Translations under genes and position numbers: made by a program
Shown here: in pieces, positions 3,001 to 31,200 of the stretch
How the letters are laid out: every line of letters begins with the position of its first letter
How positions within the stretch are numbered: the first letter of the stretch is position 1
Origin: Brachycybe producta
Lineage: Eukaryota; Arthropoda; Diplopoda; Playtdesmida; Andrognathidae
Length of the DNA: 64,000 nucleotides
Direction: 5' to 3'
Assembly: GCA_036925085.1 (NCBI GenBank)
Contig: JAUPFP010000221.1
Span: forward strand, 1-64,000
Notes under the pieces: generated by a model
What the model saw: only the letters and a program-made list of their open reading frames with translations
The model's database searches: none
Told to the model about the DNA's origin: nothing

Positions 3001-6000
3001 TTCAATTTCAACTCAATTTCAACTTCAATTTCAACTTCAATTTCAACTTCAATTCAACTTTAATTTCAACTTCAATATCAACTTCAATTCAACTTCAATT
3101 TTAACTTCAATTCAACTTCAATTTCAACTTCAATTTCAACTTCAATTTCAACTTCAATTTCATCTTCAATTTCAACTTCACTTTCAACTTCAATTTCAAC
3201 TTCATTTTAATTTCAATTTCAACTTCAGTTTCAACTTCAATTTCAACTTCAATTTCAACTTCAATTTCAACTTCAATTTCAACTTCAATTTAACTTCAAT
3301 TGCAACTTCAATTTCAACTTCAATTTCAACTTCAATTTCAACTTCGATTTCAACTTCAATTTCAACTTCAATTTCAACTTCAATTTCAACTTCAATTTCA
3401 ACTTCAATTTCAACTTCAATTTCAACTTCAATTTCAACTTGCAATTTCAACTTCAATTTCAACTTCAATTTCAACTTCAATTTCAATGTCAATTTCAACT
3501 TCAATTTCAACTTCAATTTTAACTTCAATTTCAACTTCAATTTCAACTTCAATTTCAACTTCAATTTTAACTTCAATTTCAACTTCAATTTCATCTTCAA
3601 TTTCAACTTCACTTTCAACTTCAATTTCAACTTCAATTTCAATTTCAATTTCAACTTCAGTTTCAACTTCAATTTCAACTTCAATTTCAACTTCAGTTTT
3701 AATTTCAATTTCAACTTCAATTTTAACTTCACTTTCAACTTCAATTTCAACTTCAATTTCAACTTCATTTTTAACTTCAATTTCAACTTCAATTTCAACT
3801 TCAATTTCAACTTCAATTTCAACTTCAATTTTAACTTCAATTTCAACTTCAATTTCAACTTCAATTTCAACTTCAATTTCAACTTCATTTCAACTTCAAT
3901 TTCAACTTCAATTTCAACTTCAATTTCAACTTCAAATTCAACTTCAATTTCAACTTCAATTTCAACTTCAATTTTAACTTCAATTGCAACTTCAATTTCA
4001 ACTTCAATTTCAACTTCATTTCAACTTCAATTTCAACTTCAATTTCAACTTCAATTTCATCTTCAATTTCAACTTCACTTTCAACTTCAATTTCAACTTC
4101 AATTTCAATTTCAATTTCAACTTCAGTTTCAACTTCAATTTCAACTTCAATTTCAACTTCAATTTCAACTTCAATTTCAACTTCAATTTCAACTTCAATT
4201 GCAACTTCAATTTCACTTCAATTTCAACTTCAATTTCAACTTCGATTTCAACTTCAATTTCAACTTCAATTTCAACTTCAATTTCAACTTCAATATCAAC
4301 TTCAATTTCAACTTCAATTTCAATGTCAATTTCAACTTCAATTTCAACTTCAATTTTAACTTCAATTTCAACTTCAATTTCAACTTCAATTTTAACTTAA
4401 ATTTCAACTTCAATTTTAACTTGAATTTCAATTTCAATTTCAACTTCAATTTAAACTTCAACTTCAATTTCAAACTTAACTTCAACTTCAACTTAACTTC
4501 AATTAAACTTCAACTTCAGTTTTAATTTCAATTTCAACTTCATTTTAACTTCAATTTCAACTTCAATTTCAACTTCAATTCAACTTCATTTTTAACTTCA
4601 ATTTCAACTTCAATTTCAACTTCAATTTCAACTTCAATTTCAACTTCAATTTTAACTTCAATTTCAACTTCAATTTCAACTTCAATTTCAACTTCAATTT
4701 CAACTTCAAATTCAACTTCAATTTCAACTTCAATTTCACTTCAACTTCAACTTCAATTTCAACTTCAATTCAACTTCAATTTCAACTTCAATTCAACTTC
4801 AATTTCAACTTCAATTTCAACTTCAATTTCAACTTCAATTTCACTTCAATTGCAACTTCAATTTCAACTTCAATTTCAACTTCAATTTCAACTTCATTTT
4901 AACTTAATTTCAACTTCAATTTCAACTTCAATTTCAACTTCAATTTCACTTCAATTTCAACTTCAATTTTAACTTCAATTTCAACTTCAATTTCAACTTC
5001 AATTTCAACTTCAATTTCAACTTCAATTTCAACTTCAATTTCAACTTCAATTTCAACTTAAATTTCAACTTCAATTTCAACTTCAATTTCAACTTCAATT
5101 TCAACTTCAATTTCAACTTCAAATTCAACTTCAATTTCAACTTCAATTTCAACTTCAATTTCAACTTAAACTTCAATTTCAAACTTAACTTCAACTTCAA
5201 CTTAACTTCAATTAAACTTCAACTTCAGTTTTAATTTCAATTTCAACTTCAATTTCAACTTCAATTTCAACTTCAATTTCAACTTCAATTCAACTTCAAT
5301 TTCAACTTCAATTTCAACTTCAATTTCAACTTCAAATTCAACTTCAATTTCAACTTCAATTCAACTTCAATTCAACTTCAATTTCAACTTCAATTTCAAC
5401 TTCATTTTTAACTTTAATTTCAACTTCAATTTCAACTTCAATTTCAACTTCTATTTCAACTTCAATTTCAACTTCAAATTTAACTTCAATTTCAACTTCA
5501 ATTTCAACTTCAATTTCAACTTCAATTTCAACTTCAATTTCAACTTCAATTTCAACTTCAATTTCAACTTCAATTTCAACTTCAATTTCAACTTCAATTT
5601 CAACTTCAATTTCAACTTTAATTTCAACTTCAATATCAACTTCAATTTCAACTTCAATTTTAACTTCAATTTCAACTTCAATTTCAACTTCAATTTCAAC
5701 TTCAATTTCAACTTCAATTTCATCTTCAATTTCAACTTCACTTTCAACTTCAATTTCAACTTCAATTTCAACTTCAATTTCAATTTCAATTTCAACTTCA
5801 GTTTCAACTTCAATTTCAACTTCAATTTCAACTTCAATTTCAACTTCAATTTCAACTTCAATTTCAACTTCAATTGCAACTTCAATTTCAACTTCAATTT
5901 CAACTTCAATTTCAACTTCGATTTCAACTTCAATTTCAACTTCAATTTCAACTTCAATTCAACTTCGATTTCAACTTCAATTTCAACTTCAATTTCAACT

Positions 6001-12790: not shown

Positions 12791-12920
12791 ACTTAACTTC
12801 AACTTAACTTCAACTTTAACTTCAACTTCACGTTCAAGTTCAACTTCAAATTCATCTTCAACTTAACTTCTACTTCAACTTCAACTTCACTTTCAAGTTC
12901 AAGTTCAAATTCATTTTTAA
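12791..12920 (+). repeat. C landmark module (representative copy)
   Basis: This is a stretch of about 130 bp of TTCAAC-rich sequence that departs from the plain 12-mer. Its key points are CTTAACTTCAACTTTAAC, then CACGTTCAAG, then TCATCTTC, CTTCTACTTC, CACTTTCAAG and CATTTTTAAC. The CACG core recurs at 8249, 12093, 12829, 14269, 19737, 20829, 28335, 29047, 30487, 40786, 43444, 47432, 48120 and 63279 (14 copies). It follows two downstream contexts: AAATTCATC (as here) or a return to plain monomers (as at 12093). Confidence 0.85.
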
Positions 12921-14268
12921 CTTCAATTTCAACTTCAATTTCAACTTCAATTTCAACTTCAATTTCTACTTCAATTTTAACTTCAATTTCAACTTCAATT
13001 TCAACTTCAATTTCAACTTCAATTTTAACTTGAATTTCAACTTCAATTTCAACTTCAATTTCAACTTCAATTTCAACTTCAACTTCAACTTAATTTCAAC
13101 TTCAATTTCAACTTCAATTTCAACTTCAATTTCAACTCCAATTTCAACTTCAATTTTAACTTCAATTTCAACTTCAATTTCAACTTCAATTTCAACTTCA
13201 ATTTCAACTTCAATTTCAACTTCAATTTCAACTTCAATTTTAACTTCAAATTCAACTTAAACTTCAATTTCAAACTTATCTTCAACTTCAACTTAATTTC
13301 AACTTCAACTTCAACTTGACTTTCAAGTTCAACTTCAAATTCATCTTCAACTTAACTTCAACTTCAACTTCAACTTCACTTTCAAGTTCAATTTCAAATT
13401 CAACTTCAACATCAACTTCAAATTCAACTTCAATTTTAACTTTAATTTCAACTTCAATATCAACTTCAATTTCAACTTCAATTTTAACTTCAATTTCAAC
13501 TTCAATTTCAACTTCAATTTCAACTTCAATTTCAACTTCAATTTCATCTTCAATTTCAACTTCACTTTCAACTTCAATTTCAACTTCAATTTCAATTTCA
13601 ATTTCAACTTCAGTTTCAACTTCAATTTCAACTTCAATTTCAACTTCAATTTCAACTTCAATTTCAACTTCAATTGCAACTTCAATTTCAACTTCAATTT
13701 CAACTTCAATTTCAACTTCAATTTCAACTTCAATTTCAACTTCAATTTCAACTTCAATTTCAACTTCAAATTCAACTTCAATTTTAACTTCAATTTCAAC
13801 TTCAATTTCAACTTCAATTTCAACTTCATTTTTAATTTCAATTTCAACTTCAATTTCAACTTCAATTTCAACTTCAATTTCAACTTCAATTTCAACTTCA
13901 ATTTTAACTTCAATTTTCACTTCAATTTCCACTTCAATTTCAACTTCAATTTCAACTTCAGTTTCAACTTCAATTTCAACTTCAATTTCAACTTCAATTT
14001 CAACTTCAATTTCAACTTCATTTTTAATTTCACTTTCAACTTCAATTTCAACTTCAATTTCAACTTCAATTTCAACTTCAATTTTAACTTCAATTTCAAC
14101 TTCAATTTCCACTTCAATTTCAACTTCAATTTCAACTTCAGTTTCAACTTCAATTTCAACTTCAATTTCAACTTCAAGTTTAACTTCAAATTCAACTTAA
14201 ACTTCAATTTCAAACTTAACTTCAACTTCAACTTAACTTCAACTTAACTTCAACTTTAACTTCAACTT
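12829..14268 (+). repeat. 1440-bp higher-order unit (first of a tandem pair)
   Basis: C landmark to C landmark is 1440 bp (12829 to 14269). The next B landmark is also 1440 bp on once the foldback element and one TAA are subtracted (13316 to 18952 minus 4196). The same 1440-bp C-to-C spacing is found at 29047 to 30487, so the pair was itself copied. Confidence 0.75.
13275..13430 (+). repeat. B landmark module (representative copy)
   Basis: A conserved run starting CTTATCTTC and passing through TTGACTTTCAAG, AAATTCATC, CACTTTCAAG and CAACATCAAC. The core TTGACTTTCAAG recurs at 13316, 18952, 20248, 21340, 29534, 30998, 35836, 39079, 41377, 44047, 44891, 48511, 54224, 56259, 61370 and 62869 (16 copies). 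Several copies in 39079-44891 carry AAATTTATC instead of AAATTCATC, which marks a sub-family. Confidence 0.85.
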
Positions 14269-14417
14269 CACGTTCAAGTTCAACTTCAAATTCATCTTCA
14301 ACTTAACTTCTACTTCAACTTCAACTTCACTTTCAAGTTCAAGTTCAAATTCATTTTTAACTTCAATTTCAACTTCAATTTCAACTTCAATTTCAACTTC
14401 AATTTCTACTTCAATTT

Positions 14418-14420
14418 TAA
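14418..14420. other. Target site duplication TAA, left copy
   Basis: The last three satellite bases before the element are TAA, matching TAA at 18614-18616 after it. Uninterrupted copies of this unit read CTACTTCAATTTTAACTTC with a single TAA at this point (12978-12980 and 30636-30638). Confidence 0.8.
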
Positions 14421-14427
14421 GAGGGTT
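14421..14427 (+). repeat. Terminal inverted repeat, left
   Basis: GAGGGTT is the exact reverse complement of 18607-18613 (AACCCTC). Similarity fades immediately inward (ACAGAGC against GTGAAGT), so the terminal repeat is only 7 bp. Confidence 0.65.
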
Positions 14428-14969
14428 ACAGAGCGCCACGGACGTTTTTTTGACAGACGACATTATGATTGCAGTGTCTGACATCAGAGGCGCCACTTGT
14501 ATTGAATTAGCATAGACATAATGCTAATTTAAATTTCAAACATACAGTTAGGTTTGGTAGTCATTATCTGGAGACATATAAGTTTTTAAAATGTGATTAA
14601 AACTGTAATAAATATTAGATTGTTTAATGAAACAGATTAAAAAATTTTCAGACTTTAAATCTGCCTCTAAATATTTTTAATTAAATATTTAATAAGGTGT
14701 TTTTTTTTTTCTATGCAAAATCTCATAGAAGAAAAAAAGCTACATATTTGGTATCCATTATCTTTGTTTTACAAAAGAGATAATAGTAAAATAAAAAAAT
14801 GTGGTGGTAGATTTATTTCTTTTCTATAAGAACAATTAAATTTCATTACCTAATTGCATGTGTATATTTTTATATTGAAGTAAAAGTCGTAATGGGCGAA
14901 TTTTTTCAGATCAATAAAAATCTGATTGAGTCAAGGCCTGGTTAGAGAGTACATGACGTCACATTACAC
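14428..14969. other. Left sub-terminal single-copy segment of the element
   Basis: About 540 bp with no clear partner in the right half and no open frame of note. It holds two near-identical direct motifs, CAGAGCGCCAC (14429-14439) and CAGAGGCGCCAC (14485-14496), an AT-rich middle, and a TGACGTCA palindrome. The right end has only about 155 bp outside its arm, so the two ends are asymmetric. Confidence 0.6.
14954..14961. promoter_or_regulatory. CRE-like palindrome TGACGTCA
   Basis: A perfect match to the cAMP-response/ATF palindrome just outside the left arm. It is a chance-sized 8-bp motif in a non-coding element, so function is speculative. Confidence 0.2.
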
Positions 14970-15574
14970 ATAATATTCTATTATGTAAACTATGTGTATG
15001 TTTTGTTTTAGATAGAAAATGTTGACCGCCATGATTGTTTTTGCTGGGTGTAAGTGATGTCTAAAAATTCATTTACTCTACTTACATGCATGCTAGAAGA
15101 AATTTGATGAATTCCTCTAAAAGATCTGGTGGAGTTTTATAAACATATAAAATTTCATGCAGAAATATGTATTTATAACCTTAGATGATTACCTTGAAGT
15201 TCATGAAAAACCCCATCGGCATCAAATAATTACAGCTATGTCCTGTACTATAGAGCATAGCAAGAGCACCCAATTTCAAATTGTACAGTTACTATAGAGT
15301 TATTATGGAGTCTATAGTATCTCAATGGCAACTGTCAAATTTGAAATGGGCGTGCTCATTCTTCTAAAAGGTGGGATGGGTAAATTTAAAAATAAGAAAA
15401 CAAGAGCAAGAAAAGAAGACATGGCATAAAATTTTAGATTGTGTTCCTCTCAACCAAAGCCTCTATGGCACCTTATAGAAGGTTATGTCTAACCTAGGTT
15501 TATAGGTTGCCATGGAAACAGACAGCCTATATTTTATAAAAAAAAGGCATTACAACAAAAAAAAATAATGTATT

Positions 15575-15577
<3 letters not shown>

Positions 15578-15618
<41 letters not shown>
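15578..15618. repeat. (AT)n microsatellite
   Basis: Uninterrupted alternating T and A over about 41 bp. The matching place in the right arm (about 17750-17810) is AT/AC-rich but has no long pure run, so the expansion is specific to the left arm. Confidence 0.9.
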
Positions 15619-15624
<6 letters not shown>

Positions 15625-15732
15625 TTTACCACCTATGTATAAAATGCCTAGGCAATATGCAAATCCACACTTTTTTTGCTAGTAAATATGCAAAATTCAG
15701 CAATTTAGGTCATGGACAAACAGAAATGTTTC

Positions 15733-15844
15733 AGGCAATTTTCAAAATCACTAACATTTCAGGCAATTTGCAAAATCACTATCATTTCAGGCAATTTGCA
15801 AAATCACTAACATTTCAGGCAATTTGCAAAATAACTAATGTTCT
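15733..15844 (+). repeat. 28-bp tandem repeats (four clean copies)
   Basis: Copies start at 15733, 15761, 15789 and 15817, each beginning AGGCAATTT(T/G)CAAAAT and ending in ACTAACATTTC-like sequence. More diverged copies with the AGGCAA(T/C) core continue to about 16015, up to the 23-bp array. The inverted counterpart, built on TTGCACATTGCCTGAAAAG, occupies 17121-17740. Confidence 0.85.
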
Positions 15845-16035
15845 ATGCAGTGCCAATTTTTTTAACTTTAAGGCAATGTGTTAAATACTCAGGCAATAGA
15901 CAAAATTTAGGGCGTTTTAGGCAATGTGCAAAATTCGTAACTTATTTCAGAGAATATCTAAAATCACAAACTTTCCAGGCAACACACAAAATGACAACTT
16001 TTCAGGAAATTTGCAAATGATTTGCAAACCTTCGC

Positions 16036-16584
16036 GGGACAGATTTGCGAACCTTCGCGGGACGGATTTGCGAACGCGCGCGGGACGGATTTGCGAACGC
16101 ACGCGGGACGGATTTGCGAACGCGCGCGGGACGGATTTGCGAACGCGCGCGGGACGGATTTGCGAACGCGCGCGGGACGGATTTGCGAACGCGCGCGGGA
16201 CGGATTTGCGAACGCGCGCGGGACGGATTTGCGAACGCGCGTGGGACGGATTTGCGAACGCGCGCGGGACGGATTTGCGAACGCGCGCGGGACGGATTTG
16301 CGAACGCGCGCGGGACGGATTTGCGAACGCGCGCGGGACGGATTTGCGAACGCGCGCGGGACGGATTTGCGAACGCGCGCGGGACGGATTTGCGAACGCG
16401 CGCGGGACGGATTTGCGAACGCGCGCGGGACGGATTTGCGAACGCGCGCGGGACGGATTTGCGAACGCGCGCGGGACGGATTTGCGAACGCGCGCGGGAC
16501 GGATTTGCGAACGCGCGCGGGACGGATTTGCGAAGCGCGCGGGACGGATTTGCGAAGCGCGCGGGACGGCTTGCGAAGCGTGCA
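16036..16584 (+). repeat. Left 23-bp tandem array, CpG-rich
   Basis: About 24 units of GGGACGGATTTGCGAACGCGCGC run at a 23-bp period from 16036. The last units shorten to 22 bp (from 16519 and 16541). The first unit instead ends GAACCTTCGC, resembling the opposite arm. A typical unit carries six CpG steps, giving a local GC-rich island inside 25% GC satellite. Because 23 is not a multiple of 3 and the unit has no stop codons, several plus frames stay open and spell 23-residue repeats. This is not evidence of coding. Confidence 0.95.
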
Positions 16585-16617
16585 AAAAGGCTTGCAAACT
16601 ACAGAAAGGCTCTATAA
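16585..16617. other. Hinge between the two inverted arms
   Basis: About 33 bp (AAAAGGCTTGCAAACTACAG and following bases) separate the left array from the oppositely oriented right array. It is the loop of the potential foldback hairpin. AAGGCT occurs twice within it. Confidence 0.7.
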
Positions 16618-17110
16618 GGTTCGCAAATCTGTCCCGCAAAGGTTCGCAAATCCGTCCCGCAAAGGTTCGCAAATCCGTCCCGCAAAGGTTCGCAAATCCG
16701 TCCCGCAAAGGTTCGCAAATCCGTCCCGCAAAGGTTCGCAAATCCGTCCCGCAAAGGTTCGCAAATCCGTCCCGCAAAGGTTCGCAAATCCGTCCCGCAA
16801 AGGTTCGCAAATCCGTCCCGCAAAGGTTCGCAAATCCGTCCCGCAAAGGTTCGCAAATCCGTCCCGCAAAGGTTCGCAAATCCGTCCCGCAAAGGTTCGC
16901 AAATCCGTCCCGCAAAGGTTCGCAAATCCGTCCCGCAAAGGTTCGCAAATCCGTCCCGCAAAGGTTCGCAAATCCGTCCCGCAAAGGTTCGCAAATCCGT
17001 CCCGCAAAGGTTCGCAAATCCGTCCCGCAAAGGTTCGCAAATCCGTCCCGCAAAGGTTCGCAAATCCGTCCCGCAAAGGTTCGCAAATCCGTCCCGTAAG
17101 GTTCGCAAAC
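16618..17110 (-). repeat. Right 23-bp tandem array, inverted relative to the left
   Basis: About 21 units of GGTTCGCAAATCCGTCCCGCAAA start at 16618. The last full unit is 22 bp and a half unit follows at 17100-17110. The reverse complement, GGGACGGATTTGCGAACCTTTGC, shares its first 17 bases with the left-arm unit but has a different tail (CTTTGC rather than GCGCGC), with three CpG per unit. Units within the array are nearly identical to each other. Confidence 0.95.
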
Positions 17111-17120
17111 AATTTGCAAA

Positions 17121-17651
17121 TTGCCTGAAGTAAGAATTTTGCACATTGCCTAAAACACTGAATTTTGTCTATTGTCTGAGAAATTCTGGATTTAACACAT
17201 TGCCTGAAAAGTTAAAAAAAATTGGCACACTGCCTAGAAAATTAATTATTTTGCACATTGCCTGAAAAGTTAGGAATTTTAAAGATTGCCTGGAAAGTTT
17301 GTGATTTTACACATTTTATGAAAAGTCGATAATTTTGCACATTGCCTGAAGTTAGGAATTTTGCACAATGCCTAAAACTCTGAATTTTGTCTATTGCCTG
17401 AGAAATTCTGGATTTAACACATTGCCTGAAAAGTTAAAAAAAATTGGCACACTGCCTAGAAAATTAATTATTTTGCACATTGCCTGAAAAGGTAGTCATT
17501 TTAAAGATTGCCTGAAAAGTTTGTGATTTTACACATTTTATGAAAAGTCGATAATTTTGCACATTGCCTGAAGTTAGGAATTTTGCACATTGCCTAAAAC
17601 TCTGAATTTTGTCTATTGCCTGGGAAATTCCGGATTTAACACATTGCCTGA
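17121..17651. repeat. Direct tandem repeat of about 221 bp (2.4 copies)
   Basis: Copies begin TTGCCTGAAG at 17121, 17342 and 17564. The third runs only to about 17651. Each copy contains smaller GCACATTGCCTGAAAAGTT-type subrepeats and a TTAAAAAAAATTGGCACAC segment. The left arm has no matching 221-bp duplication. Confidence 0.9.
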
Positions 17652-18450
17652 TGATTAGTATGCACATGACCTAAATTGCTGAATTTTGATTATTTACTAG
17701 CAAAAGAGTGATTTTGCAGATTGCCTAGGCATTTTATACATTGGCCGTAACATACATATTTATTCATATATACACACACAGATACATATAAATAATAGTG
17801 AATATGACATCATGTTCAAAAATAGCATTTGAATGTGACACTACATACATCCTTGGATAGATTAGATGGCTTGATGTTTCTCTATATAGAAAATACATTA
17901 TTATTCTTTTTGTAATGTCTCCCTTGTTTATAAAATGTAGGCTGTCTGTTTCCATGGCAACCTACCAACTATGTTGAGACATAGCCTCCTATCAGGAGTT
18001 ATGAGAGGCTATAGTTGAGAGGAATACAATCGAAATTTTATGCTGTCTCTTCTTTTCCTTCTTGCTGTTTTCTAATTTTTAAATTTACCCATCCCACCTT
18101 TTAGCAGAAACATGGCTCCAATTTTAAATTTGACAGTTACTATTGCATACTATAGACTATAGTAACTCTATAGCAAATGCCTACAACTTGAAATTTGATG
18201 CCAACGGTTTTTTTCATGAACTTGAAGGTAAGTTTCTAAGGTTATATATGAATATTTCAGCATAAAATTTTAGATATTTATAAAACCCCACCAGATCTTT
18301 TAGTTGGATTGAACAGATTTTTTCTAGCATGCATGGAAATAGAGAAAATTAAGTTTTTGTCAGCACTTAAACCCACCAAAAACAAATATGGCGGGTCAAC
18401 ATTTTTCAGGTAAAACATACAGTTTTCATAACAAAATATAATAAGAGAAT

Positions 18451-18606
18451 ATACATCCATTGTAGCCTCTAATGCATCCCCCACAAAAATTTACCATTTA
18501 TACATAAGCTGCATATCATATTAGAGAATAACCATAACGTCCTATATACATAATAAACGATGCGAGCACCCTCTATGAATATTTTTCAGAAATTCACCTA
18601 CTTCAC
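18451..18606. other. Right sub-terminal segment of the element
   Basis: About 155 bp outside the right arm without a left partner. It includes a second ACCCTC at 18568-18573, 34 bp inside the terminal copy, which could be an older or alternative end. Confidence 0.5.
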
Positions 18607-18613
18607 AACCCTC
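18607..18613 (-). repeat. Terminal inverted repeat, right
   Basis: AACCCTC, the exact reverse complement of the left terminus at 14421-14427, is followed at once by the TAA duplication and the resumed satellite. Confidence 0.65.
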
Positions 18614-18616
18614 TAA
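18614..18616. other. Target site duplication TAA, right copy
   Basis: TAA precedes CTTCAATTTCAA at 18617. From here to the B landmark (18952) is 335 bp, the same as 12981-13316 in the uninterrupted copy. Confidence 0.8.
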
Positions 18617-21600
18617 CTTCAATTTCAACTTCAATTTCAACTTCAATTTCAACTTCAATTTCAACTTCAATTTTAACTTGAATTTCAACTTCAATTTCAA
18701 CTTCAATTTCAACTTCAATTTCAACTTCAACTTCAACTTAATTTCAACTTCAATTTCAACTTCAATTTCAACTTCAATTTCAACTCCAATTTCAACTTCA
18801 ATTTTAACTTCAATTTCAACTTCAATTTCAACTTCAATTTCAACTTCAATTTCAACTTCAATTTCAACTTCAATTTTAACTTCAAATTCAACTTAAACTT
18901 CAATTTCAAACTTATATTCAACTTCAACTTAATTTCAACTTCAACTTCAACTTGACTTTCAAGTTCAACTTCAAATTCATCTTCAACTTAACTTCAACTT
19001 CAACTTCAACTTCACTTTCAAGTTCAATTTCAAATTCAACTTCAACATCAACTTCAAATTCAACTTCAATTTTAACTTTAATTTCAACTTCAATATCAAC
19101 TTCAATTTCAACTTCAATTGCAACTTCAATTTCAACTTCAATTTCAACTTCAATTTCAACTTCAATTTCAACTTCAATTTCAACTTCAATTTCAACTTCA
19201 ATTTCAACTTCAATTTCAACTTCAATTTCAACTTCAAATTCAACTTCAATTTTAACTTCAATTTCAACTTCAATTTCAACTTCAATTTCAACTTCATTTT
19301 TAATTTCAATTTCAACTTCAATTTCAACTTCAATTTCAACTTCAATTTCAACTTCAATTTCAACTTCAATTTTCACTTCAATTTTCACTTCAATTTCCAC
19401 TTCAATTTCAACTTCAATTTCAACTTCAGTTTCAACTTCAATTTCAACTTCAATTTCAACTTCAATTTCAACTTTAATTTCAACTTCATTTTTAATTTCA
19501 ATTTCAACTTCAATTTCAACTTCAATTTCAACTTCAATTTCAACTTCAATTTTAACTTCAATTTCAACTTCAATTTCCACTTCAATTTCAACTTCAATTT
19601 CAACTTCAGTTTCAACTTCAATTTCAACTTCAATTTCAACTTCAAGTTTAACTTCAAATTCAACTTAAACTTCAATTTCAAACTTAACTTCAACTTCAAC
19701 TTAACTTCAACTTAACTTCAACTTTAACTTCAACTTCACGTTCAAGTTCAACTTCAAATTCATCTTCAACTTAACTTCTACTTCAACTTCAACTTCACTT
19801 TCAAGTTCAAGTTCAAATTCATTTTTAACTTCAATTTCAACTTCAATTTCAACTTCAATTTCAACTTCAATTTCAACTTCAATTTCTACTTCAATTTTAA
19901 CTTCAATTTCAACTTCAATTTCAACTTCAATTTCAACTTCAATTTTAACTTGAATTTCAACTTCAATTTCAACTTCAATTTCAACTTCAATTTCAACTTC
20001 AACTTCAACTTAATTTCAACTTCAATTTCAACTTCAATTTCAACTTCAATTTCAACTCCAATTTCAACTTCAATTTTAACTTCAATTTCAACTTCAATTT
20101 CAACTTCAATTTCAACTTCAATTTCAACTTCAATTTCAACTTCAATTTCAACTTCAATTTCAACTTCAATTTTAACTTCAAATTCAACTTAAACTTCAAT
20201 TTCAAACTTATCTTTAACTTCAACTTAATTTCAACTTCAACTTCAACTTGACTTTCAAGTTCAACTTCAAATTCATCTTCAACTTAACTTCAACTTCAAC
20301 TTCAACTTCACTTTCAAGTTCAATTTCAAATTCAACTTCAACATCAACTTCAAATTCAACTTCAATTTTAACTTTAATTTCAACTTCAATATCAACTTCA
20401 ATTTCAACTTCAATTTTAACTTCAATTTCAACTTCAATTTCAACTTCAATTTCAACTTCAATTTCAACTTCAATTTCATCTTCAATTTCAACTTCACTTT
20501 CAACTTCAATTTCAACTTCAATTTCAATTTCAATTTCAACTTCAGTTTCAACTTCAATTTCAACTTTAATTTCAACTTCATTTTTAATTTCAATTTCAAC
20601 TTCAATTTCAACTTCAATTTCAACTTCAATTTCAACTTCAATTTTAACTTCAATTTCAACTTCAATTTCCACTTCAATTTCAACTTCAATTTCAACTTCA
20701 GTTTCAACTTCAATTTCAACTTCAATTTCAACTTCAAGTTTAACTTCAAATTCAACTTAAACTTCAATTTCAAACTTAACTTCAACTTCAACTTAACTTC
20801 AACTTAACTTCAACTTTAACTTCAACTTCACGTTCAAGTTCAACTTCAAATTCATCTTCAACTTAACTTCTACTTCAACTTCAACTTCACTTTCAAGTTC
20901 AAGTTCAAATTCATTTTTAACTTCAATTTCAACTTCAATTTCAACTTCAATTTCAACTTCAATTTCAACTTCAATTTCTACTTCAATTTTAACTTCAATT
21001 TCAACTTCAATTTCAACTTCAATTTCAACTTCAATTTTAACTTGAATTTCAACTTCAATTTCAACTTCAATTTCAACTTCAATTTCAACTTCAACTTCAA
21101 CTTAATTTCAACTTCAATTTCAACTTCAATTTCAACTTCAATTTCAACTCCAATTTCAACTTCAATTTTAACTTCAATTTCAACTTCAATTTCAACTTCA
21201 ATTTCAACTTCAATTTCAACTTCAATTTCAACTTCAATTTCAACTTCAATTTCAACTTCAATTTTAACTTCAAATTCAACTTAAACTTCAATTTCAAACT
21301 TATCTTTAACTTCAACTTAATTTCAACTTCAACTTCAACTTGACTTTCAAGTTCAACTTCAAATTCATCTTCAACTTAACTTCAACTTCAACTTCAACTT
21401 CACTTTCAAGTTCAATTTCAAATTCAACTTCAACATCAACTTCAAATTCAACTTCAATTTTAACTTTAATTTCAACTTCAATATCAACTTCAATTTCAAC
21501 TTCAATTTTAACTTCAATTTCAACTTCAATTTCAACTTCAATTTCAACTTCAATTTCAACTTCAATTTCATCTTCAATTTCAACTTCACTTTCAACTTCA

Positions 21601-28290: not shown

Positions 28291-31200
28291 ACTTCAACTT
28301 AACTTCAACTTAACTTCAACTTTAACTTCAACTTCACGTTCAAGTTCAACTTCAATTTTAACTTCAATTTCAACTTCAATTTCAACTTCAATTTCAACTT
28401 CAATTTCAACTTCAATTTCAACTTCAATTTCAACTTCAATTTCAACTTCAATTTCAACTTCAATTTCAACTTCAATTTCAACTTCAATTTCAACTTCAAT
28501 TTCAACTTCAATTTCAACTTCAATTTCAACTTCAATTTCAACTTCAAATTCAACTTCAATTTTAACTTCAATTTCAACTTCAATTTCAACTTCAATTTCA
28601 ACTTCATTTTTAATTTCAATTTCAACTTCAATTTCAACTTCAATTTCAACTTCAATTTCAACTTCAATTTCAACTTCAATTTTAACTTCAATTTTCACTT
28701 CAATTTCCACTTCAATTTCAACTTCAATTTCAACTTCAGTTTCAACTTCAATTTCAACTTCAATTTCAACTTCAATTTCAACTTCAATTTCAACTTCATT
28801 TTTAATTTCAATTTCAACTTCAATTTCAACTTCAATTTCAACTTCAATTTCAACTTCAATTTTAACTTCAATTTCAACTTCAATTTCCACTTCAATTTCA
28901 ACTTCAATTTCAACTTCAGTTTCAACTTCAATTTCAACTTCAATTTCAACTTCAAGTTTAACTTCAAATTCAACTTAAACTTCAATTTCAAACTTAACTT
29001 CAACTTCAACTTAACTTCAACTTAACTTCAACTTTAACTTCAACTTCACGTTCAAGTTCAACTTCAAATTCATCTTCAACTTAACTTCTACTTCAACTTC
29101 AACTTCACTTTCAAGTTCAAGTTCAAATTCATTTTTAACTTCAATTTCAACTTCAATTTCAACTTCAATTTCAACTTCAATTTCTACTTCAATTTTAACT
29201 TCAATTTCAACTTCAATTTCAACTTCAATTTCAACTTCAATTTTAACTTGAATTTCAACTTCAATTTCAACTTCAATTTCAACTTCAATTTCAACTTCAA
29301 CTTCAACTTAATTTCAACTTCAATTTCAACTTCAATTTCAACTTCAATTTCAACTCCAATTTCAACTTCAATTTTAACTTCAATTTCAACTTCAATTTCA
29401 ACTTCAATTTCAACTTCAATTTCAACTTCAATTTCAACTTCAATTTCAACTTCAATTTTAACTTCAAATTCAACTTAAACTTCAATTTCAAACTTATCTT
29501 CAACTTCAACTTAATTTCAACTTCAACTTCAACTTGACTTTCAAGTTCAACTTCAAATTCATCTTCAACTTAACTTCAACTTCAACTTCAACTTCACTTT
29601 CAAGTTCAATTTCAAATTCAACTTCAACATCAACTTCAAATTCAACTTCAATTTTAACTTTAATTTCAACTTCAATATCAACTTCAATTTCAACTTCAAT
29701 TTTAACTTCAATTTCAACTTCAATTTCAACTTCAATTTCAACTTCAATTTCAACTTCAATTTCATCTTCAATTTCAACTTCACTTTCAACTTCAATTTCA
29801 ACTTCAATTTCAATTTCAATTTCAACTTCAGTTTCAACTTCAATTTCAACTTCAATTTCAACTTCAATTTCAACTTCAATTTCAACTTCAATTGCAACTT
29901 CAATTTCAACTTCAATTTCAACTTCAATTTCAACTTCAATTTCAACTTCAATTTCAACTTCAATTTCAACTTCAATTTCAACTTCAAATTCAACTTCAAT
30001 TTTAACTTCAATTTCAACTTCAATTTCAACTTCAATTTCAACTTCATTTTTAATTTCAATTTCAACTTCAATTTCAACTTCAATTTCAACTTCAATTTCA
30101 ACTTCAATTTCAACTTCAATTTTAACTTCAATTTTCACTTCAATTTCCACTTCAATTTCAACTTCAATTTCAACTTCAGTTTCAACTTCAATTTCAACTT
30201 CAATTTCAACTTCAATTTCAACTTTAATTTCAACTTCATTTTTAATTTCAATTTCAACTTCAATTTCAACTTCAATTTCAACTTCAATTTCAACTTCAAT
30301 TTTAACTTCAATTTCAACTTCAATTTCCACTTCAATTTCAACTTCAATTTCAACTTCAGTTTCAACTTCAATTTCAACTTCAATTTCAACTTCAAGTTTA
30401 ACTTCAAATTCAACTTAAACTTCAATTTCAAACTTAACTTCAACTTCAACTTAACTTCAACTTAACTTCAACTTTAACTTCAACTTCACGTTCAAGTTCA
30501 ACTTCAAATTCATCTTCAACTTAACTTCTACTTCAACTTCAACTTCACTTTCAAGTTCAAGTTCAAATTCATTTTTAACTTCAATTTCAACTTCAATTTC
30601 AACTTCAATTTCAACTTCAATTTCTACTTCAATTTTAACTTCAATTTCAACTTCAATTTCAACTTCAATTTCAACTTCAATTTTAACTTGAATTTCAACT
30701 TCAATTTCAACTTCAATTTCAACTTCAATTTCAACTTCAACTTCAACTTAATTTCAACTTCAATTTCAACTTCAATTTCAACTTCAATTTCAACTCCAAT
30801 TTCAACTTCAATTTTAACTTCAATTTCAACTTCAATTTCAACTTCAATTTCAACTTCAATTTCAACTTCAATTTCAACTTCAATTTCAACTTCAATTTCA
30901 ACTTCAATTTTAACTTCAAATTCAACTTAAACTTCAATTTCAAACTTATCTTCAACTTCAACTTAATTTCAACTTCAACTTCAACTTCAACTTCAACTTG
31001 ACTTTCAAGTTCAACTTCAAATTCATCTTCAACTTAACTTCAACTTCAACTTCAACTTCACTTTCAAGTTCAATTTCAAATTCAACTTCAACATCAACTT
31101 CAAATTCAACTTCAATTTTAACTTTAATTTCAACTTCAATATCAACTTCAATTTCAACTTCAATTTTAACTTCAATTTCAACTTCAATTTCAACTTCAAT

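Follow-up and report, generated by a model that had tools for sequence, protein, structure and literature searches.

The element and its empty sites

Positions 14421-18613 of the window (the whole stretch of DNA analyzed here, 64,000 nucleotides of a Brachycybe producta contig) form a single insertion of 4193 bp (~4.2 kb) within a unit of a 12-bp satellite. The element starts with GAGGGTT at 14421 and closes with AACCCTC at 18607, each motif occurring once in the window; these ends and this length are those given by an earlier reading of the letters alone (hereafter, the sequence-only reading). The insertion site and its empty counterparts are as follows.

14417..14420, no strand: left target-site copy, TTAA (read from the sequence and compared with the tips in fetched loci)
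18614..18616, no strand: right target-site copy, TAA (TTAA short of one T in the window copy)
about 12833..13322, no strand: empty-site satellite unit, landmark to landmark, aligned to the filled unit
about 29051..29540, no strand: second empty-site satellite unit, with the same identity and gap counts as the unit at 12833

Removing 4193 + 3 bp from the filled unit leaves 489 bp with the landmark used here, equal to both empty-site units. When aligned to each of them, the filled unit gives 476 identities, one mismatch, and 24 gap positions, the latter being two compensating 12-bp unit differences of which one adjoins the insertion point. The two empty units bear out that one element went into a single satellite unit; the 487-bp spacing first proposed for them (12829-13316 and 29047-29534) depends on the landmarks of the sequence-only reading. 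Similarly, TAA had been seen on both flanks; this holds on the right, whereas the left side reads TTAA, which is the duplication of the family.

Architecture

From tip to tip, the element is built as follows.

14421..14974, plus strand: left end, starting GAGGGTTACAGAGCGCC, common to the autonomous parent and to MITEs of 0.9-1.1 kb
14975..15585, plus strand: outer left inverted arm, of unique sequence, pairing with the right arm at 86% of aligned bases
15578-15618: TA run closing the outer left arm
15730..16020, plus strand: left-arm zone of a degenerate 28-bp minisatellite of the TTTCAGGCAATTTGCAAAATCACTAACA type (Tandem Repeats Finder, which gives 15729-15837 with period 56, and sequence)
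16041..16577, plus strand: left-arm array of 23-bp units, commonest unit TTGCGAACGCGCGCGGGACGGAT (24 anchors; GC 68%)
16578..16619, no strand: hinge separating the two 23-bp arrays, from the array boundaries
16620..17110, minus strand: right-arm 23-bp array, commonest unit on the minus strand CCTTTGCGGGACGGATTTGCGAA (22 anchors)
17113..17651, minus strand: right-arm zone of the 28-bp minisatellite (Tandem Repeats Finder: period 28, 19.6 copies, 65% matches)
17883..18442, minus strand: outer right inverted arm, aligned with the left arm
18443..18613, plus strand: right end, terminating in AACCCTC, from right-end matches in the genome

The interior forms an imperfect palindrome that contains 28-bp and 23-bp minisatellites; either strand can therefore fold back. 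Segments of its arms (element positions 550-1163 and 3463-4022) share 470 identical positions when aligned, with 76 mismatches and 82 gap positions, and the best BLAST match between the arms runs through the minisatellite zones (E 2e-176). Folded as DNA, the central 966 nt (16130-17095) reach -507 kcal/mol, while 20 shuffles average -259 (z -32.6). Long arms with tandem repeats around a short hinge make the build foldback-like, but, unlike in classical foldbacks, the arms end before the tips: the terminal inverted repeat (TIR) measures 7 bp, the outer ends further in are unlike (52 of the first 170 positions match), and the inverted arms begin ~550 bp (left) and 171 bp (right) inside the tips. 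The mirrored arms described earlier are hence present, though not in terminal position, and the hinge between them spans 42 bp by our boundaries instead of the 33 bp read before. Ten open reading frames of at least 80 codons are listed within the element; they were judged to be repeat translation, and no transposase domain was found in the element. The earlier picture of a foldback-like single element that is probably mobilized in trans agrees with this.

A transposase-bearing relative and its derivatives

The sequence-only reading had called for an autonomous relative with the same terminus, and contig C259 supplies a candidate of ~12.1 kb (left tip 31709, right tip 43833). Its ends match those of the 4.2-kb element, with 96% identity on the left and 77% on the right (over the last 149 bp of the parent). 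Similarity on the left ends at element base 554; ~554 bp of the left end and 171 bp of the right end are retained. With no more than 77% identity to C259 on the right, the element may have a closer helper, or drift may have altered its right end. At the left tip of C259 a pattern search allowing up to two mismatches gives a match (the control gave one), and the right tip is followed by TTAA and then by the same 12-bp satellite as in the window.

Between these tips, a 980-aa frame without a stop (L059:4622-7561) matches the DDE transposase PF20700 (E 9e-87) and YqaJ (E 5e-17). The latter, a lambda-exonuclease-like domain (PF09588), occupies residues 728-878, with an exonuclease match in the PDB (E 2e-5). 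Among 11 aligned proteins, D330, D424, C446xxH449, D814, E824, and K826 are invariant and E576 is nearly so. The three small open reading frames of the parent that were tested gave no Pfam match.

Further relatives are present in the genome. Left ends 96% identical to that of the element belong to the parents on C259, C107, and C184, and PF20700 matches are found on all three of these contigs. Seven loci join the transposase region (93-100%) to the parent right end (98-100%), and three of these seven occur among the left-end matches listed. One of the seven, C333, has stops in the transposase domain, and in another, C184, the PF20700 match begins only at profile position 98. A degraded older copy lies on C1, with its transposase region at 9440550-9442654 and its right end at 9445329; of the 27 bases in the pattern built on the right tip of the 4.2-kb element, the right tip of this copy differs at one. 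The MITEs complete the group: all six that were fetched (L052-L057) have TTAA on both sides, and the four of them that were compared with the parent consist of its left ~516-535 bp joined to its right ~400 bp. These four are internal-deletion derivatives of the parent.

Origin of the palindromic core

In blastn and nhmmer comparisons of the core with the C259 interior, similarity was confined to the TA run. A reversed (not complemented) control reached 74 against 85 bits with blastn and scored better with nhmmer; as this control scored similarly or better, we claim no derivation of the core from sequence. The interior is thus replaced between shared ends and resembles the C259 interior in nothing beyond TA runs, as would be expected if unrelated host or other repeat DNA had been captured between two ends of the family (KolobokE, see below). 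We consider such a capture possible but less likely than not. Against it, 3 of 14 genome matches to a 5' fragment of the transposase gene lie near older right ends or arms of the family. These three (C86:308512, C12:1887446, and C12:1592250) are antisense and ~0.9-3.4 kb inward of the older right ends or arms; their coordinates suggest that older relatives bore an inverted piece of the gene. The palindromic core may accordingly have descended from a rearranged older KolobokE, which is the origin we prefer.

Copies, boundaries, and age

At least 34 copies in the genome have both ends paired, with lengths of 3,189-5,250 bp. The GAGGGTT and AACCCTC boundaries recur in them, as 32 of the 34 match from the first left base and 33 of the 34 to the last right base. 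Out of 61 distinct tips in the fetched loci, 57 carry TTAA and an intact GAGGG (27 of 28 on the left, 30 of 33 on the right), and the window's right tip is one of the four exceptions. The sequence-only reading had staked its boundaries on other copies not ending elsewhere and not lacking a TAA duplication. It came through this comparison, TAA being part of TTAA; the boundary view consequently stands, while the family assignment changes.

The element is very young. Over the first 530 bp of the left end, 35 of the best 40 genome matches (the window's own included) are at least 98% identical. Across the 171 bp of the right end, 30 of 41 listed matches, again with the window, are identical (40 of 145 candidates scored), and the 584 bp of the outer right-arm region match in the best 40 of 136 candidate places, window included. 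High identity over many copies, with many small contigs involved, might also stem from gene conversion or assembly duplication in place of a recent transposition burst. We regard this as unlikely: two 4,258-bp copies on C27, ~14 kb apart and in opposite orientation, are identical at every base, yet they have different flanks with TTAA on both sides, and array lengths vary strongly among copies. Neither differing flanks nor unequal arrays are predicted by wholesale conversion or simple assembly duplication. The recent spread of the element therefore remains our reading of the near-identity. The left-arm unit comes in three types as well as mixtures, whereas the right-arm unit is nearly constant, and the arrays may have grown through slippage or unequal exchange.

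Family assignment

The TTAA duplication, the 5'-GA...TC-3' ends (5'-RR and YY-3'), and the 7-bp TIR suit Kolobok, unlike PIF/Harbinger. Within this superfamily, KolobokE is described as encoding a DDE transposase and, downstream of it, a lambda-exonuclease-like nuclease (PMC9587614). The PD-(D/E)xK nuclease that follows the transposase and the catalytic residues D330, D424, C446xxH449, and (nearly invariant) E576 are seen in the autonomous relative only, and PF20700 plus YqaJ, the only transposase found with the element's ends, would by its domains be KolobokE. An N-terminal THAP domain is usual in Kolobok (PMC6004289); a Pfam scan of the 980-aa frame found none at E up to 1, and the background section of PMC9587614 does not list THAP as a requirement.

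TTAA is likewise the duplication of piggyBac, and the element could in principle be a piggyBac-type passenger with a piggyBac transposase as its mover; RR/YY ends, however, separate Kolobok from piggyBac (PMC9587614). The transposase read between element-type ends is not piggyBac either, which leaves this reading very improbable. PIF/Harbinger elements make a 3-bp duplication, TAA or TTA, and the earlier hint at them arose where TAA borders both sides, in the window alone, but since 57 of the 61 tips carry TTAA next to an intact GAGGG and the only transposase found with these ends is PF20700 plus YqaJ, it lacks support and is practically untenable.

Very probably, then, the element is a non-autonomous KolobokE passenger that kept the parental ends around a palindromic core and would be moved by a related transposase-nuclease. 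An autonomous KolobokE would have kept ~554 bp of its left and 171 bp of its right end while losing the transposase gene, and its interior would have become an imperfect palindrome whose arms hold the 28-bp and 23-bp minisatellites. The transposase-nuclease of open-frame relatives (the ~12.1-kb copy on C259 and related copies on C107, C119, C134, and others) would then recognize the ends and move the passenger into TTAA sites, in the window a TTAA of a satellite unit. The mover is presumably a protein of the C259 type, and the 4.2-kb element plausibly represents an undescribed family.

Comparison with known elements

Foldbacks are known, as are Kolobok MITEs with amplified repeats. With KolobokE as described in PMC9587614, the window element shares the TTAA duplication, the RR...YY termini, and an autonomous relative with a DDE transposase and downstream nuclease, but it contains neither domain itself and its interior is palindromic and filled with minisatellites. 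Tetris/DAIBAM of Drosophila virilis likewise combines a foldback without genes, tandem repeats in its arms, and tips common to a MITE family; according to the account in PMC4079207, Tetris was assigned to Mutator by 8-10 bp duplications, and its authors sought an autonomous partner and found none. The window element, in contrast, has a TTAA duplication and a candidate autonomous partner, and its arms are not terminal, whereas the Tetris repeats sit in terminal inverted repeats. Galileo of Drosophila is equally foldback-like, with arm tandem repeats that vary independently per arm, but it belongs to the P superfamily and its repeats lie within terminal inverted repeats (as presented in PMC3573991). 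Xmix/T2-MITE of Xenopus is a non-autonomous presumed Kolobok element at TTAA with an amplified internal tandem repeat, Xstir; as PMC6004289 depicts it, an internal segment is amplified, in place of a pair of long inverted arms flanking a hinge. A full-text literature search found no Kolobok foldback, which does not establish its absence in print.

Significance

We tentatively propose a Kolobok foldback with an open-frame candidate helper, whose arms may act as minisatellite factories, with each wave of copies newly expanding a left-arm unit. If true, it would be the first foldback placed in Kolobok with its transposase identified, and it would extend the foldback build from the Mutator and P superfamilies, where the cited papers place it, to a TTAA-targeting one. 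The origin and mover of foldbacks are hard to test without an autonomous partner. Here, one genome holds the passenger, deletion-derivative MITEs, and a relative with matching ends whose transposase-nuclease frame is uninterrupted, many copies being nearly identical, so that cross-mobilization and arm growth become directly testable.

Lastly, a strict satellite-flank pattern occurs at three places in the genome, including the right end on C259; as the pattern is built such that the window copy does not fit it, we claim no insertion preference for the satellite. A candidate helper and a passenger are nonetheless both found in satellite arrays of one type.

Insertion in satellite DNA and target site

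A single 12-bp satellite, CTTCAATTTCAA, covers the whole window (Tandem Repeats Finder) and is broken by the 4.2-kb element at 14421-18613. This element begins with GAGGGTT and ends with AACCCTC, each motif occurring once in the window; its arms are mirror images, with outer segments 86% identical over aligned bases, and its middle folds much more strongly than shuffled versions (n = 20). The sequence-only reading of an insertion into a satellite unit with empty sites was borne out by near-identical units at 12833-13322 and 29051-29540, each aligning to the filled unit with 476 identities, one mismatch, and two compensating 12-bp differences. By this alignment, both represent the filled unit without the insertion. 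Beside the insertion, the filled unit has gained one 12-bp unit relative to its two empty relatives (18617-18640), and a compensating 12-bp loss lies about 190 bp beyond, at about 18806.

The same reading had taken TAA as the target-site duplication. Among the fetched loci, however, 57 of 61 distinct tips show TTAA followed by an intact GAGGG; the target sequence duplicated is thus TTAA, from which one T is missing in the window copy. The exceptions are the window right tip, a C1 right tip (L017), a C10 left tip (L042), and the second member of a C21 pair (L043). In this pair (C21:3410747-3418844), two foldback copies stand tail to tail with one TTAA in common, the second being devoid of its first G.

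Copies and age of the family

A whole-element search of the genome yielded at least 275 matches (best 33 of 287 candidates scored). Pairing 40 left-end with 41 right-end matches gave at least 34 elements of 3,189-5,250 bp, leaving six left and seven right ends unpaired among the matches listed. The left match starts at base 1 in 32 of the 34 (exceptions: C10, base 2, and one C2 copy, base 23), and the right match reaches the last base in all but one C21 copy, which is 1 bp short. As only the best 40 of 154 left-end, 145 right-end, and 136 right-arm candidates were scored, older copies are under-counted. Another tandem repeat (GGTTGAACGTTTAA-like) adjoins family copies in L020 and L036 (both on C309) and in L050 (C273), so the family's satellite surroundings are not restricted to that of the window.

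Judging from sequence identity, the family is in part very young. The 171-bp right end is identical in 30 of the 41 matches listed, and along a right-side stretch of 1,493 bp, L012, L017, and L018 are identical to the window copy, with L010, L011, L014, L019, and L023 one base apart. C27 carries two oppositely oriented copies, separated by about 14 kb and unlike in their flanks, that show no difference along 4,258 bp. Older members, with arms or ends at 93-96%, are also present.

The candidate autonomous partner and its derivatives

A Pfam family search located PF20700 at 53 places in this genome versus none in 14 control genomes. The three contigs with 96% left ends (C107, C259, and C184) carry the two best matches and one lower match.

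Features of the autonomous element on C259
31709 to 43833: autonomous element
Residues 180-527 of its 980-aa frame: PF20700
Residues 728-878 of the same frame: YqaJ

The right tip of the C259 element reads AACCCTC, followed by TTAA and the window's 12-bp satellite. Its type of transposase region and right end occur together at seven loci, five of them stop-free over domain positions 1-350 (C259, C107, C119, and two on C134); the C184 match begins only at domain position 98, and C333 contains stops. Scoring of 7,991 candidates in a protein search brought up 25 relatives, at 30-37% identity, and both domains are present in 20 of these; catalytic positions are conserved across 11 aligned sequences (the query and 10 of the 25). 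Further PF20700 frames of 798-924 aa, stop-free in the matched stretch and more distant from the C259 gene, lie on C47, C148, C385, C3, and C49. Within the C259 element (locus L059), we also observed a palindrome, about 1.5 kb long and nested in it (L059:2337-3808; several arm pieces 95-100% complementary), and a small inverted repeat around a 31-bp GC-rich minisatellite (L059:831-1262), which resembles the foldback core in style.

All six fetched 0.9-1.1 kb elements (L052-L057) have TTAA on either side. The four compared with the C259 parent retain about 516-535 bp of its left and about 400 bp of its right sequence, and are thus ordinary MITEs formed by internal deletion. The 4.2-kb element shares the parent's left end up to base 554 and its last ~155 bp at 77%, the interior being replaced.

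Core and arm arrays

The core does not match the C259 interior except for a TA run. Descent from a rearranged KolobokE is plausible because, by coordinates, 3 of 14 transposase-gene fragment matches lie antisense near older relatives of the foldback family.

The 23-bp unit of the left arm, compared in 20 copies, varies by group: six carry the window type, eight a second, one a third (L044), four mixtures, and L051 none. In the right arm, 17 of the 20 have the same commonest unit (exceptions: L031, L048, and L051), and array lengths differ widely. The arms therefore appear to grow and become homogenised independently of each other, as is also reported for Galileo (PMC3573991). L051 (C2:1108080-1111268) is a 3,189-bp copy without 23-bp arrays, and L044 (C128) spans 5,250 bp.

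Mechanism and place among known systems

By target and ends, the 4.2-kb element qualifies as a Kolobok passenger; it is foldback-like rather than a classical foldback, since its arms are internal. Shared ends and duplication suggest that the KolobokE protein most likely mobilises it: the protein would bind the ends common to helper and passenger and carry the latter into TTAA sites. Palindrome and arrays would be by-products of inverted duplication and repeat slippage, as the array variation suggests. Full-text literature searches returned no Kolobok foldback among the matches listed. In its mode of action, the element resembles Tetris (PMC4079207), Galileo (PMC3573991), and Xmix (PMC6004289).
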